Assembly (NCBI GenBank): GCA_012519415.1
Contig: JAAYQG010000007.1
Span: 1-32,253, forward strand
Direction: 5' to 3'
Origin: Treponema sp.
Lineage (GTDB): Bacteria > Spirochaetota > Spirochaetia > Treponematales > Treponemataceae
DNA: 32,253 nt
In this document: in pieces, positions 2,109-30,246 of the stretch
Layout of the letters: every line of letters starts with the position of its first letter
How positions within the stretch are numbered: the first letter of the stretch is position 1
Translations under genes and position numbers: made by a program
Notes under the pieces: model-generated
Database searches by the model: none
What the model was told of the DNA's origin: nothing
What the model saw: the letters and a program-made list of their open reading frames with translations, nothing else

Positions 2109-2157
2109 GGGTTCGCCAGATTAACCCAAAATTTTAGCTCAATCCCAATGCGAACCC
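2109..2157 (-). repeat. Stem-loop repeat copy D
   Basis: GGGTTCGC (2109-2116) pairs perfectly with GCGAACCC (2150-2157) around a 33-nt centre (2117-2149) that matches the other copies (minus strand ATTGGGATTGAGCTA, then TTTTGGGTTAATCTG). It overlaps the 3' end of the glycoside hydrolase gene: the last codons and TGA stop (2139-2141) are inside the repeat. Confidence 0.7.
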
Positions 2158-4772
2158 TCCAATATATACCAAAGTGTTGGTGTATATGGCGAAAGTTGTA
2201 TAATTTTTCCTGTTTTTAACGCTTGGTTGATTCTGTTTCCGGATAAATCTACTTGATATAATTTCAGATTTTCTTTGTTATAGATTTCCAGTTTGCCACC
2301 TCCACCTAAAGCAAAAGCAGGACCTCTGCCTAGCGTTGGACTTGTAGTAAGGTTTATTTCATTGCGATAAATCTTTTTTGAACCTTTTGTTCCATATTCA
2401 GCTAGATTTTCCCCTTTGTTTCCGCTCCAGCTGCATAAAAAAAGAATGTAAGAATTATTTTCTTTTATTGCCATCATTGTTGTAAAATCATTGTTATTAG
2501 TTAAAGGTTGTAAGATACCATTTTTTTTCCATTGTTCAGGATATGCTGGTAGAACAGAATTTTTACCAGTTACTGTAATTGTAACATCTTGATTGCATAC
2601 AATGTAAACTCCTGAATCTCTGTCCCAATAAATCTGATTAGTTTCATCAAAAGTTTTTCTGCTAGAAAAACTCGGAGCATTGATAAGCAGATTTACAGCA
2701 TTTTTAGGAACATTGCCGTTAACAGCAATACCGATTTTTGAAACAAGAGATACATCCGGAATCATTCCATAAATTACAGTATTTCCGATATTCCATGAAT
2801 TAAATTTATGCAAATTTTCTCTTTCCGTTTTCTCATCTAAATTTATGTAATAATTCGTTTTTGCGGGTTTAACAAGAAAGTTTCTAAATATTTTACTGGC
2901 AATAGGCGAGGCGCATGATTTTGCAGGATTATTTCCTTGATCAAAGTATCCTGTAATTTTGAGGTTTTGCCCGTTTTTATTAGTTGGAAGCGTAGAACAA
3001 AAAGTAAAAATACAATCCCAATCCTGAAAAGAAGCAAAACTTGCAATCATTGGATACATTTCCGCAGAAAATTGATTCGGATAAGGATGATCATATTCAC
3101 TTACGCTAAAAGGTTTTCCGTAAACTCGATATTTCGCAAGTGTAGCTAGAGTGCTGTCTATTGTGCTTTTTGTAAGAGTTTTGTTTGCAACATAATAATG
3201 ATTTAGATCCCACGCAGTTTTTGGAAAAACCGGATGGTTCCAATAGGCATGAGAATCTATAATATCGAAGCAGTTTTGCAACATTGTGCTGCTACAACCC
3301 ATAGAAGTACCCATAATGAGTGCTTTGCTTCCTATTTCGTTTGTTATATAATTTTTAATATCAAGCCAATAGTCCGCTTCTTTTTCCCACAAAAAGTTCA
3401 GAATGAGATTTTGATATTCAGCCGGAAGCAATTGGTATTCTTCATATTTTGGAAAAGCGACTAATTTATTTTTTTTCGAATTTTTACTAAGTCTGATAAC
3501 ATCAATTTTTCCACCTTCTGTTAAAGAAAGATTCTTTATTACGATAGTTTTGCCGGAAAGAAATCCCATAGAGGAAAAAATAACTCTAAGATTTTCATCA
3601 TCCATTAGATTTGTTATCGTAAATTCATAATCTGTGAAGTTTTTTTCGAGGTTCAATTTTTTTTCAAAACCGGCGTTTTGCCATGGTGCGTGTGCCTGTG
3701 CGAATGCAACATCTATTTCACAATTATCAGACGCTTTTGCTGAAAATTTAAGCGTATAAATTTTATCGCTTGAAATATTTAATTTTGAACGAGCATATTG
3801 AATATGCCATGAAGATAAGCCGTTTTTTGAAATTTTTATTGTGTGAGTTCCGTTTTTTGTTTCAACGTTAGATTTTGCTCCTTCATGATTTTCTAAAATC
3901 CATTGTGTTGTTTCTGAATAATCTATGAGAGTTTTTCCGGTAGGTTCAGATATATTAAAATTTGATTTTAAACTATCATAAGATTTTCCTTGCTTTTCAA
4001 GCCAATTATTCCACTCAAGTTCAAGATTTTGCCAGTATTCATTTTCAGCATTAAACTCTTTAAGCCAATTGCAAAGATAAGCATGTAGAAAACCGTTTTC
4101 ATTATTGATTTCTATAATTGCAACAGCCGGATCATCTTTATACGCAATATTTGTGTATGGGTTGACGTGCGAGATTAAATCAAATGCATATTTTTTTTGC
4201 ATTTTTCGAGCGTTATCGTCCCAAAAGCCTAGAACATGAGGAGCTTTCCATTCGGAAATATTGTCGATTTCAGGCAAAAAACCTTCTTTTGAGTTATAGA
4301 TTCTTCCTGTGAGAAGGTTAATGTTTGAATAAATTCCATTTTGCTTAAGCAAATAGAAAAAATAATCAAATGCATCAAGTCTTGCTTTATCAATGCTGGT
4401 AGTTCCGTCTGCATTATACTTTATGAAACAATTAGTCCAGTTTGAATCTGTATGATGAAAACGAATGCAGTTGTAGCCTTGATTTGCAAGTGCTTTTGCA
4501 GCGAATTCTGCTTGCTTTTTTGAGGTTGGAAATTCTGTAAGATTAGTTCCAAAAATTCGAATGCGTTTGCCGTCAGCTTCCAGATGTCCTTCTTTGTTCA
4601 CATAGATTCTGTCTTTTTCCGTAATCTGTTTGTTCAATTTTGCTGCCGAAATTTCAGAATCCGGTTTAAGCTTATAATGATTAAAATGAAATGATTTTGA
4701 AGTATCAAAATCCTGAGCAAAAAGCATTTCTCCGACACAAAAAATAACCAAAAATAAAAAATATTTCTTCAT
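2139..4772 (-). CDS. Secreted GH5-like (clan GH-A) glycoside hydrolase with inserted CBM-like domain
   Basis: 877 aa from the ATG at 4772; an upstream in-frame TTG at 4790 is unlikely because it would put six polar residues before the signal peptide. Residues 1-20 form a signal peptide (hydrophobic core FLFLVIFCVG, likely cut after LFA or FAQ), so the enzyme is exported. A TIM-barrel-like start (IFGTNLTE 74-80, RFHHTD 104-109) leads to the probable acid/base Glu225 in NNENG. The probable nucleophile Glu559 lies in SVSEYDHP. Between them, about 289-420 resembles a beta-sandwich CBM4/9-type module (Trp291, ISSDKIYTLKFSAKA, closing VIKNLSLTE). The C-terminal 250 residues look like beta-rich accessory domains. 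The substrate is probably a plant or host beta-glycan, but that is inference. The final codons and stop come from stem-loop repeat D. Confidence 0.8.
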   Translation of the reverse strand: MKKYFLFLVIFCVGEMLFAQDFDTSKSFHFNHYKLKPDSEISAAKLNKQITEKDRIYVNKEGHLEADGKRIRIFGTNLTEFPTSKKQAEFAAKALANQGYNCIRFHHTDSNWTNCFIKYNADGTTSIDKARLDAFDYFFYLLKQNGIYSNINLLTGRIYNSKEGFLPEIDNISEWKAPHVLGFWDDNARKMQKKYAFDLISHVNPYTNIAYKDDPAVAIIEINNENGFLHAYLCNWLKEFNAENEYWQNLELEWNNWLEKQGKSYDSLKSNFNISEPTGKTLIDYSETTQWILENHEGAKSNVETKNGTHTIKISKNGLSSWHIQYARSKLNISSDKIYTLKFSAKASDNCEIDVAFAQAHAPWQNAGFEKKLNLEKNFTDYEFTITNLMDDENLRVIFSSMGFLSGKTIVIKNLSLTEGGKIDVIRLSKNSKKNKLVAFPKYEEYQLLPAEYQNLILNFLWEKEADYWLDIKNYITNEIGSKALIMGTSMGCSSTMLQNCFDIIDSHAYWNHPVFPKTAWDLNHYYVANKTLTKSTIDSTLATLAKYRVYGKPFSVSEYDHPYPNQFSAEMYPMIASFASFQDWDCIFTFCSTLPTNKNGQNLKITGYFDQGNNPAKSCASPIASKIFRNFLVKPAKTNYYINLDEKTERENLHKFNSWNIGNTVIYGMIPDVSLVSKIGIAVNGNVPKNAVNLLINAPSFSSRKTFDETNQIYWDRDSGVYIVCNQDVTITVTGKNSVLPAYPEQWKKNGILQPLTNNNDFTTMMAIKENNSYILFLCSWSGNKGENLAEYGTKGSKKIYRNEINLTTSPTLGRGPAFALGGGGKLEIYNKENLKLYQVDLSGNRINQALKTGKIIQLSPYTPTLWYILEGSHWD

Positions 4773-4778
4773 ATGATT

Positions 4779-4806
4779 ATTATATAACAAAAAACGTCAG
4801 TTTGAA
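4779..4806 (-). promoter_or_regulatory. Candidate promoter of the glycoside hydrolase gene (leaderless arrangement)
   Basis: On the minus strand TTCAAA (4/6) is followed after 16 bp by a perfect TATAAT (4784-4779). Exactly 6 nt separate it from the ATG at 4772, and no Shine-Dalgarno sequence is present. Transcription from this site would start at the A of the ATG. The -35 overlaps a short dispersed repeat (4798-4830). Confidence 0.45.
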
Positions 4807-4830: not shown

Positions 4831-4945
4831 ACTTTTTCTTGTGCTTCTAAAATTGTGAACTAAAATTGTGAAAATCAAAAAACAATGTAGAAAATCCGCA
4901 TTACGTTCGTAAGTGTACGAGCATAGTTCAATCAGGCTGGCATCG

Positions 4946-4994
4946 GTTTTGCCAGCCTAATCTTTATTTTGTAGATTAATCCCAATTGCGAAAC
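4946..4994 (-). repeat. Stem-loop repeat copy F
   Basis: Minus strand: GTTTCGC, a 35-nt centre beginning AATTGGGATTAATCTA and ending TTAGGCTG, then GCAAAAC; the stem has a single mismatch. It starts about 16 bp after the glgC stop codon. A second hairpin, GGCTGGC/GCCAGCC (4935-4941 with 4951-4957), overlaps one arm and would be an alternative fold. No T tract follows on the minus strand, so it is not a classical glgC terminator. Confidence 0.55.
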
Positions 4995-5010
4995 GGGATG
5001 TAATAAAAAA

Positions 5011-6999: not shown

Positions 7000-7062
7000 A
7001 ATCAAAACTTTGCCGAAAATGGCGTCAAAGTTTTGATTCGCAAAGTTTGCGTTGCAAACTTT
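7000..7062 (+). repeat. Double-hairpin repeat, full copy (terminator-like)
   Basis: AATCAAAACTTTG (7000-7012) pairs perfectly with CAAAGTTTTGATT (7026-7038) around a 13-nt loop. It is followed by AAAGTTTGC/GCAAACTTT (7042-7050 with 7054-7062, 3-nt loop) and more T residues, giving a terminator-like end on the plus strand. The segment from AAAGTTTTGATT to GCAAACT recurs at 9518-9551 between flgG and flgJ. Confidence 0.6.
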
Positions 7063-7738: not shown

Positions 7739-7878
7739 TCTTATTGTAGCGCATTATTCATGTTGAGCTGTGCATGATTCAGTGAACGGAAACTGCGTTT
7801 TAATTCCAAAGCATTTGAGTTTTTGGGGAATCTTTTTTAGAAGCTGATGTTTCTTTGTTTATTGTGGAGGCCTTTTTT

Positions 7879-8673
7879 ATGGTACAAGGTTGGTACACCG
7901 GTGCAAGCGGTATGATTGCACAACAGAACCGCTTGGATGCAATTTCAAACAATCTTGCAAATGTAGACACGACAGGCTACAAACGCGATGTTGCAGTCAA
8001 TAAAAACTTTTCTGAATTATTGCTCCGCAGAATGCGCGACAACGGTGAATATACTTTCTGGGGTGGTTCCGCAGATGTTGCTCCGATAGTGGGTAAAGTT
8101 GGTCTTGGTGTTGAAACTAATGAACTTTACACAGTTTTTGAGCAAGGTTCATTTAAAAACACAGGTGCTGCTACGGATATTGCGCTTGCAGGTGAAGGCT
8201 TTTTTGCCGTTCAGACACCAGCAGGCGAACGATACACACGAGCAGGAAATTTCCTAATTGGCAAAGAAGGCATTCTTGAAACAAAAGAAGGTTATCCTGT
8301 TCTTGGCGAAAACGGTATAATTCGTTTGCAGGACAAGCATTTTAAAGTGAATGACGATGGAATTATTACTGTAGATGGAGACAGGACTATTGACCGCCTC
8401 AAACTTGTCCGTTTTGAGAATGAGCGTTATCTAAAAAAACAAGGCGAAAATCTTTGGGTAGATAACAATATTTCCGGCAAAGCTTATATTGCGGAAGGAA
8501 ATGAACGTCCTGCATTATTGCAAGAATATGTAGAAACTTCAAATGTTAATGTTGTCAATGAAATGGTTCAGATGATTGAAGTGAACCGTGCTTATGAAGC
8601 AAATCAAAAGACAATTCAAACTGAAGATACAATGATGTCAACGTTGTGGTCAAAAGTTGCAGTTTTACGCTAA
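7879..8673 (+). CDS. flgF: Flagellar basal-body rod protein FlgF
   Basis: 264 aa from the ATG at 7879, preceded by GGAGG (7866-7870); an in-frame TTG at 7855 lacks a ribosome site. A component of the proximal/distal rod that carries torque through the periplasm; in spirochaetes it sits at the base of the periplasmic filaments. The N-terminus GWYTGASGMIAQQNRLDAISNNLANVDTTGYKR is the rod/hook family signature (SNNLANxxTxGYKR). The middle contains the conserved GEGFFAVQTPAGERYTRAGNF. The C-terminus ENVNVVNEMVQMIEVNRAYEANQK-type segment (VNVVNEMVQMIEVNRAYE) is the paired coiled-coil helix. First gene of flgF-flgG-flgJ, 31 bp before flgG. Confidence 0.93.
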   Translation: MVQGWYTGASGMIAQQNRLDAISNNLANVDTTGYKRDVAVNKNFSELLLRRMRDNGEYTFWGGSADVAPIVGKVGLGVETNELYTVFEQGSFKNTGAATDIALAGEGFFAVQTPAGERYTRAGNFLIGKEGILETKEGYPVLGENGIIRLQDKHFKVNDDGIITVDGDRTIDRLKLVRFENERYLKKQGENLWVDNNISGKAYIAEGNERPALLQEYVETSNVNVVNEMVQMIEVNRAYEANQKTIQTEDTMMSTLWSKVAVLR

Positions 8674-8704: not shown

Positions 8705-9499
8705 ATGGTAAGAAGCTTATGGACAGCTGCAACCGGAATGAACGGTCAGCAGGCTAACATTGATACGATTTCTAACAACTTGTCAAATGTAAACACAAGT
8801 GGATTCAAAAAACAGCGAGTTGAGTTTGAAGATTTGATTTATCAGAACGTAAAAGCAGCTGGAACTCCTGCAACAGAAGATACAGTAACTCCTGTCGGCA
8901 TTCAAATGGGAAGCGGTGTTAAAGTTGCCGCTACACAACGTATGTTTGACCAAGGTGCATTGCAGAGCACATTGAACTCAACAGATTTAGCGATTGAAGG
9001 CGAGGGATTCTTTAGAGTTCAGCAGTATGATGGCAGTTACGCATATACAAGAGACGGTTCTTTTAAAATTGATTCAAACGGTCAGCTTGTTACATCGAAT
9101 GGTCTACGTGTAATGCCGGAAGTTATTATGCCGGAAGGTTTTAGACTTGAAACATTAGCAATAAGCCGTGACGGTAGAATTACTGTAAAAGTTGCTGGTG
9201 CGGATGATCCTGTAGATGTTGCACAAATTGAACTTTACAGATTTCCAAATCCGGTTGGACTTGCTGCTGATGGCGACAATCTTTTTAAGGTAACTAATGC
9301 TTCGGGAGATCCTATTGCAAATAGACCGGGATTTGAAGGCATGGGCGAAACTCATCATAAATTTCTTGAAATGTCAAACGTTTCAGCCGTAAACGAAATG
9401 GTTCAAATGATTGTTGCCCAACGTGCGTATGAGTTCAGCTCAAAGGCAATTCAGACGAGCGACACAATGCTTTCAACTGCTACAAATCTTAAAAGATAG
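8705..9499 (+). CDS. flgG: Flagellar distal rod protein FlgG
   Basis: 264 aa. FlgG polymerises into the distal rod between the FlgF-containing proximal rod and the hook. N-terminus MVRSLWTAATGMNGQQANIDTISNNLSNVNTSGFKK is typical of FlgG (starting LWTAATGM rather than the YTGASGM of FlgF). The central GEGFFRVQQYDGSYAYTRDGSF and the C-terminal SNVSAVNEMVQMIVAQRAYE helix complete the family pattern. A GGAAAAGGGAG ribosome site precedes the ATG. A repeat copy (9518-9551) lies between it and the next gene. Confidence 0.95.
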   Translation: MVRSLWTAATGMNGQQANIDTISNNLSNVNTSGFKKQRVEFEDLIYQNVKAAGTPATEDTVTPVGIQMGSGVKVAATQRMFDQGALQSTLNSTDLAIEGEGFFRVQQYDGSYAYTRDGSFKIDSNGQLVTSNGLRVMPEVIMPEGFRLETLAISRDGRITVKVAGADDPVDVAQIELYRFPNPVGLAADGDNLFKVTNASGDPIANRPGFEGMGETHHKFLEMSNVSAVNEMVQMIVAQRAYEFSSKAIQTSDTMLSTATNLKR

Positions 9500-9517: not shown

Positions 9518-9551
9518 AAAGTTTTGATTTACAAAGTTTGCGTTGCAAACT
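9518..9551 (+). repeat. Double-hairpin repeat, partial copy between flgG and flgJ
   Basis: The sequence AAAGTTTTGATTTACAAAG, continuing to GCGTTGCAAACT, matches 7027-7060 with two changes. It keeps the AGTTTGC/GCAAACT hairpin but lacks the partner of the upstream 13-bp stem and the T tract. It lies 19 bp after the flgG stop and may attenuate or stabilise the operon mRNA. Confidence 0.55.
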
Positions 9552-12016: not shown

Positions 12017-12042
12017 TACGGGAATGTTTCGTAATTTGATTT

Positions 12043-12101
12043 AATCTAAAGTTTGGAGATTGAGCTGGCGAAAATTGTAGGCTTTATTTTAAACTTAGAT
12101 T
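12043..12101 (+). repeat. Possible stem-loop repeat copy G (divergent)
   Basis: AATCTAAAGTTT (12043-12054) pairs with AAACTTAGATT (12091-12101) except for one bulged A. The enclosed sequence starts GGAGATTGAGCTGGCG, matching the family centre's GGGATTGAGCT and its TGGCGAA end as if internally deleted. It lies in the 224-bp gap between the PilZ gene and ileS, which otherwise shows no gene. Confidence 0.35.
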
Positions 12102-29879: not shown

Positions 29880-29908
29880 AGTATATCATTTTAATGAGAG
29901 TTTCTCAA
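29880..29908 (-). promoter_or_regulatory. Sigma-70 promoter of smpB, leaderless arrangement
   Basis: Minus strand TTGAGA (29908-29903, 5/6), 17-bp spacer, TATACT (29885-29880, 5/6), then 7 nt to the ATG at 29872. This is the best -35/-10 pair in the window, and it leaves no room for a ribosome site. Confidence 0.6.
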
Positions 29909-29912
29909 TATT

Positions 29913-29967
29913 GGCGTTTTGCGTTTGGGATTGAGCTATGAATTTGGGACTATGTTAGCAAAACGCC
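29913..29967 (+). repeat. Stem-loop repeat copy A
   Basis: GGCGTTTTGC (29913-29922) pairs perfectly with GCAAAACGCC (29958-29967), 10 bp, around a 35-nt centre with GGGATTGAGCTATG and TTTGGGACTATGTTA. First of three tandem copies in the smpB-lepB gap. Confidence 0.75.
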
Positions 29968-29974
29968 GAAGTTT

Positions 29975-30061
29975 GCACTTTAATCAGACTTCCTTGTCTG
30001 ATTAAAGTGCCGAGTTTTGCTTCACAAAACTCGTCGCTTGTGCACTGCGTCCTTGCAGTGC
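29975..30061 (+). repeat. Three consecutive perfect hairpins between repeat copies A and B
   Basis: GCACTTTAATCAGAC/GTCTGATTAAAGTGC (29975-29989 with 29996-30010, 15 bp, loop TTCCTT); CGAGTTTTG/CAAAACTCG (30011-30019 with 30025-30033, 9 bp); GCACTGC/GCAGTGC (30042-30048 with 30055-30061, 7 bp). None has a T tract suited to termination. Together with copies A-C they fill nearly the whole intergenic region with paired sequence. Confidence 0.7.
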
Positions 30062-30076
30062 GGGTTTGTAAGGGGT

Positions 30077-30127
30077 GCGTTTTGCTTTGGGATTAATCTT
30101 AAATTTGGGGTTATGTTAGCAAAACGC
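30077..30127 (+). repeat. Stem-loop repeat copy B
   Basis: GCGTTTTGC (30077-30085) pairs with GCAAAACGC (30119-30127), 9 bp, around a 33-nt centre (TTTGGGATTAATC, then TTTGGGGTTATGTTA). A further perfect 11-bp hairpin CAAGTTTTTGC/GCAAAAACTTG (30128-30138 with 30142-30152, loop GGG) follows directly. Confidence 0.75.
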
Positions 30128-30160
30128 CAAGTTTTTGCGGGGCAAAAACTTGAGGTTTGG

Positions 30161-30210
30161 GCGTTCACTTGGGTTTTATCTACGAAATTGGGGTTATGTT
30201 GGTGAAACGC
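30161..30210 (+). repeat. Stem-loop repeat copy C
   Basis: GCGTTCAC (30161-30168) pairs with GTGAAACGC (30202-30210) with one bulge, around a 33-nt centre (TTGGGTTTTATC, then TTGGGGTTATGTTG). The stem end changed from TTTGC/GCAAA in copies A and B to CAC/GTG on both sides, a compensatory change. It lies just before the signal peptidase gene and could include its start codon region. Confidence 0.7.
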
Positions 30211-30246
30211 TTGTTTTTTATGTTCTCATTATGTTATCTTCTTGTT

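Follow-up and report, generated by a model that had tools for sequence, protein, structure and literature searches.

MITEs and the mosaic repeats BOX, ERIC and NEMIS are short intergenic repeats that are modular and non-autonomous. REP and BIME sequences, of the GTAG and CGTC super-families, occur with the TnpA-REP (RAYT) protein; their hairpin loops are mostly 2–5 nt, and an unpaired GTAG or CGTC stands at the foot of the hairpin (PMC3733652, PMC8266576). Most of the high-copy palindromes that have been studied are tied to Y1 transposases, and a family without such an enzyme in its genome raises the question of what moves it. Here we describe a large, clade-specific family in treponemes, in which the loop is kept while the stems are swapped, that looks like a new REP-like family of mobile DNA and harbours copies of an already described candidate small RNA. 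We did not find the element described in the papers on Treponema palindromes that we searched.

The stretch analysed (the window) comprises 32,253 bp, contig C146 of a Treponema sp. genome of 2.45 Mb in 189 contigs (G000). An earlier note, made from the letters alone, reported four clear copies (A–D) of a stem-loop, here called X, with a conserved loop and differing stems that stayed paired, plus a few weaker copies, and read this as selection on a folded RNA or ssDNA. We searched with two covariance models, R1, built from 35 X copies, and R2, built from many stem classes. All four copies lie exactly where they had been placed, the weaker ones in the window number three, and the other hairpins that had been noticed between A and B proved to be a three-hairpin block resembling the TD-2 RNA. 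The features of the window are as follows:

29913–29967, + strand: X hairpin copy A; stem GGCGTTTTGC/GCAAAACGCC, 35-nt loop; 73.1 bits with R1; fold z −4.5
29973–30060, − strand: three-hairpin TD-2-like RNA block with two A(N)GGA loops; Rfam RF03162 (TD-2), 41.6 bits, full length 1–98
30077–30127, + strand: X hairpin copy B; stem GCGTTTTGC/GCAAAACGC; 67.4 bits with R1
30128–30152, + strand: Y hairpin directly 3′ of X copy B; CAAGTTTTTGC/GCAAAAACTTG, 3-nt loop; read from the sequence
30161–30210, + strand: X hairpin copy C, X2 class; GCGTTCAC/GTGAAACGC, one bulged base; 39.8 bits with R1
2109–2157, − strand: X hairpin copy D; GGGTTCGC/GCGAACCC; 61.6 bits with R1, 53.6 bits with R2
2032–2068, − strand: copy E, loop kept and stem lost; 30.3 bits, model positions 11–47 only; no fold
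4942–4998, − strand: further X copy; 55.6 bits with R1
12022–12078, + strand: decayed, weak X copy; 28.9 bits with R1, E 1.3e-4

Compared with shuffled sequences, copies A, B and D fold with z scores of −4.5, −3.6 and −4.1, and C more weakly (−2.3); copy E (2020–2079, − strand) folds no better than its shuffles (z +0.9). Copy C belongs to a second class, X2, that is found within arrays and has a bulged, less perfect stem. The interior of copy D supplies the stop codon of an 883-aa ORF (2139–4790, − strand). Elsewhere in the window, two 34-nt repeats (7027–7060 and 9518–9551), 94% identical and with a lone Y-like hairpin (AAGTTTGCGTTGCAAACTT), flank two ORFs (7855–8673 and 8705–9499). The terminal 90 bases of the contig (window 32162–32253) are found again in contigs C149, C185, C70 and C69 at 99–100% identity and represent a separate repeat.

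The family is real and larger than the earlier note stated. The loop motif with at most two mismatches occurred 34 times in G000 and not at all for a reversed control, and R1 gave 152 matches there with 150 candidates scored, so that the copies number at least 150; tens would have counted as support in the earlier note. R1 also found 65 copies in G006, matched G004, G003 and G001 as well as one place in G007, and had no match in G002 or G005. R2 matched five species (G000, G001, G003, G004 and G006), in which all or nearly all of the scored candidates were matches, and had no match in 140 other genomes of the family or in 295 other genomes of the phylum. When an exact pattern was run against 84,980 named species, the only matches were in four Spirochaetaceae/Spirochaetales MAGs, including RGIG8276 (water-buffalo rumen) and RUG14308, and the plasmids, phages and viral contigs searched held no X match. 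On present evidence the family does not extend beyond a single clade within a treponeme genus that is uncultured and largely rumen-derived. Of the 109 strong G000 copies, approximately 18% sit no more than 300 bp from the end of a contig, where 5% would be expected, suggesting that assembly breaks probably hide further copies. In contig C84 of G000 (17394 bp), stretches L021 and L022 are exact reverse complements, probably an assembly artefact, so the two X copies there are probably one.

X consists of an 8–10 bp stem and a 30–36 nt loop. On the R2 strand the loop reads (C/T)AGATTRRNCYnnnnnTGTAGATTRRNCYnnn, that is, two direct copies of GATTRRNCY, and the same loop is common to eight or more stem classes, each with its own complement (GCGTTTTGC, GCGTTTCGC, GGGTTTTGC, GGGTTTGC, GGGTTCGC, GGGGTTGC, CTTTTCGC, CTTTTCAC, GGTGCGC and GGTACGC). 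A candidate inner helix within the loop (GATTAATC/GATTAATC) was unsupported, with many A-G and T-T cells, so it is as sequence that the loop is conserved. Within a few nucleotides 3′ of the X 3′ arm lies a second hairpin, Y, with a 7–12 bp stem and a short loop, of the form CAAGTTTnnG../..CnnAAACTTG on the R1 strand; the Y stem that follows X copy B, CAAGTTTTTGC/GCAAAAACTTG, is found 3′ of 22 X copies among those examined in G000. A hairpin followed the X 3′ arm in 97 of 137 copies in G000 and 32 of 38 in G006, compared with 11 and 1 before the 5′ arm and 9/685 and 4/190 at random places (a background of 1–2%); since Y stems were listed by requiring pairing, it is this contrast with the background and the opposite side, not the pairing itself, that is the evidence. 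The basic unit is two adjoining hairpins, X then Y. Neighbours within G000 arrays share orientation in 63 cases and oppose in 2, and those in G006 (3 same, 5 opposite) are not mostly head-to-tail. A longer repeat of ~220–280 nt also starts with an X-class hairpin (L157 9485–9756 and 17479–17750, on G006:C29); it is present in dozens of copies in G004, G001, G003 and G006 and holds a large imperfect palindrome, GGTTCAAAA..TTTTGAACC around GTTTGTTG..CAACAAAC.

The combination of a conserved loop with variable yet complementary stems holds throughout G000 and across five species. Far from running out of copies or losing pairing beyond the window, the family has many copies, and 95.5% of outer-stem cells are paired among 140 distinct copies in G000. 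Both sides of a pair had changed in 60 of these cells, against 15.7 (sd 3.1) in shuffles, and the covariation score was 0.160 against 0.069. The corresponding values in G006 were 96.5% paired, 31 double changes against 8.2, and a score of 0.289 against 0.115. The covariation that the earlier note had named as support is present in both genomes, with 0 of 500 shuffles reaching the observed score in either, where both alignments were model-fitted and cells count copies, not events, three stem subfamilies making up 102 of the 150 aligned G000 copies. The pair counts of one alignment, A7, are partly circular because it was picked for paired stems. Freer of model-fitting bias is a loop-only profile made from G000 and run on other species, used because a stem-free regular expression was too noisy there: 15 of its 27 matches had a perfect stem of 7 bp or more, against 3.9 (maximum 8) when the partners were shuffled.

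The main rival for this covariation, and a serious one, is that the stems covary without functional selection because quasi-palindrome correction, a template switch in replication, rewrites one arm from the other, with only ordinary recombination and duplication spreading the copies. The double changes are mostly full swaps (C-G to G-C in 28 cells, T-A to C-G in 26) with few wobble intermediates, G-T wobbles are no commoner than A-C mismatches (19 each), and the concentration of copies in three subfamilies also fits such a process. It leaves unexplained the conservation of one loop across many stem classes, the X-then-Y order and the dispersal to many unlinked sites, and we consider it rather unlikely as the whole account; correction may act together with mobility.

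A second possibility is that X-Y acts as a structured RNA, either cis-regulatory or working in trans, and owes its repetition to the regulation of many genes. Structure and conservation are both present, and the arrays carry TD-2-like blocks, a type that Rfam classes as sRNA. The window block matched TD-2 with E 4.5e-5 in a 361-base scan, at 41.6 bits, below the gathering score of 48.7, and further G000 matches at L008, L017 and L003 (41.9–44.1 bits, 1–98 of 98) were also under that score. The G000 DNA examined contains about a dozen blocks that are complete or almost so, as well as fragments, and such blocks lie inside X arrays also at L003, L008, L017, L126, L139, L120 and L115. Their long H1 stem pairs perfectly in 12 of 13 copies and shows compensatory changes (GCAC..GTGC, GCAG..CTGC, GCAGA..TCTGC). 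After most blocks come AAACTTC and then an X stem, i.e. these blocks occupy the usual position of Y. Their A(N)GGA loops may resemble CsrA-binding hairpins, judged by the CsrA consensus; the stretches of DNA examined, which cover part of the genome, contained no CsrA gene. A curated yet unexplained RNA is hereby linked to repeat arrays.

X itself had no match in a scan against Rfam, and its stems show no excess of G-U over A-C. A transition from a Watson-Crick pair gives either G-T or A-C, and selection on RNA from one strand should favour one of these, so the 19:19 balance gives no preference for either strand as a transcript. Copies are mainly intergenic (in G000, 110 of 147 lie wholly outside called ORFs and 15 partly) and stand in either orientation relative to genes: by crude ORF calls the flanking genes were divergent in 32 cases, tandem opposite in 31, tandem same in 20, and convergent in 13. 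Neither the wobble balance nor this mixed orientation suggests a transcript, and a structured RNA seems to us improbable. Of the two substrates that the earlier note had left side by side, folded RNA and ssDNA, the data lean towards DNA, and part of the covariation could come from template-switch correction instead of the selection that it had proposed.

Comparison of orthologous sites shows that some positions are specific to a species and others old. At the site of the window array (29905–30213), X is absent from G001, which has ~126 bp there, and from G002, which has a short spacer; G003 carries another X-Y unit there. Between the genes that flank L157 8833–9774 there are 59 bp in G000, an X unit with extra sequence in G006 and three X-type hairpins in G004. 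At the ndk site, G000 and G006 share an X copy at one position and in one orientation, suggesting that some copies are old or kept, and G004 carries another X class. The differences from relatives that the earlier note had named as support are there in that positions differ, but none of the orthologous sites compared was cleanly empty with a target duplication.

We then considered what could move the units. The REP-type transposase for which the earlier note had proposed a check is missing: neither G000, at 98% completeness, nor G006 contained Y1_Tnp (PF01797), and the single genes in G002 and G004 have no X in the DNA examined around them. RAYT/IS200, reverse transcriptase, Rpn and integron were all rejected as movers, as G000 lacked RVT_1 reverse transcriptase, PDDEXK_2/Rpn (PF12784) and any integron integrase over cut-off. 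Nor did any protein family recur beside X in G000, the only recurrences being overlapping loci and spurious ORFs that run through the repeats. That Rpn (PD-(D/E)XK) proteins move X units would accord with the X copy found within ~900 bp of about five or six of the 16 Rpn genes in G006, yet G000, the genome richest in copies, has no PF12784 gene, and eight such genes lie in G002 and seven in G005, neither of which has X, making this very improbable. Similar Rpn genes or pieces, at 82–89% DNA identity, occur at L157 2311–3309 (− strand) and in G006 contigs C22, C50, C46, C56, C4 and C5, some near X. The idea that X represents integron attC sites or their relics, which draws on the attC principle of folded ssDNA sites with covarying stems and on the integron integrases of G006 and G001, can be dismissed, as the G006 attC repeats differ in sequence (ATAACATGCACTTCAAATC onward), no integrase over cut-off is present in G000, and X arrays hold no cassettes. 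A chromosomal integron with attC repeats and an IntI of 420 bits lies at L205 (G006:C28:30000–42042), and the integron integrase of G005 is split into two pieces.

We favour, with some reserve, the reading of X-Y as palindromic DNA elements of a REP-like, non-autonomous family, which takes up the directly observed copy number, covariation, hairpin order, clade limit and differences in position between species. Against it count the absence from G000 of all the mover families searched for, the lack of a clean empty site, the ndk copy shared by G000 and G006, and the mixed orientation of neighbours in G006. Beyond these we infer recognition as ssDNA and mobility in trans. In a single-stranded DNA state X and Y would fold; a trans-acting enzyme would read the loop, needing a paired stem of no particular sequence, and would cut or copy the unit into new places. 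Recombination between copies might then expand the arrays, which the X-Y units build in intergenic DNA with TD-2-like RNA blocks as passengers. More tentatively, the family might be a hairpin mobile element of a new class: a two-hairpin unit read by its 30–36 nt loop, free in stem sequence, moved by an enzyme outside Y1/RAYT, reverse transcriptase, Rpn and integron integrase, and carrying TD-2-type RNAs to new sites.

Among the described systems, Rfam TD-2 RNA shares with the blocks the three-hairpin layout, the GAGUUUUG..CAAAACUC middle stem and the (N)GGA loops; the blocks differ in scoring under the gathering score and in lying within X arrays, and X has no TD-2 match. Integron attC sites are likewise hairpin DNA with covarying stems, but X differs in sequence, has no cassettes and conserves its loop, where attC conserves end boxes. 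Like MITEs, BOX, ERIC and NEMIS, the units are short, intergenic and modular. Their orthologous sites differ between species, with no clean empty site among them, and we saw neither target duplications nor terminal inverted repeats belonging to a known transposase. REP is the nearest case. X-Y acts like a REP family, yet we do not file it as REP because three features differ: its conserved loop is 30–36 nt, not short; no unpaired GTAG or CGTC tags its foot, which is followed by CCAAGTTT of Y or by variable DNA, GTAG occurring only within the X loop or the stem of some Y hairpins; and G000 has no cognate Y1 (RAYT) transposase. With its ~150 copies, 110 of 147 wholly outside ORFs, X is nevertheless a high-copy extragenic palindrome, and in both X and REP/BIME (PMC3733652, PMC8266576) such palindromes are grouped and form sub-families that differ by complementary stem changes.
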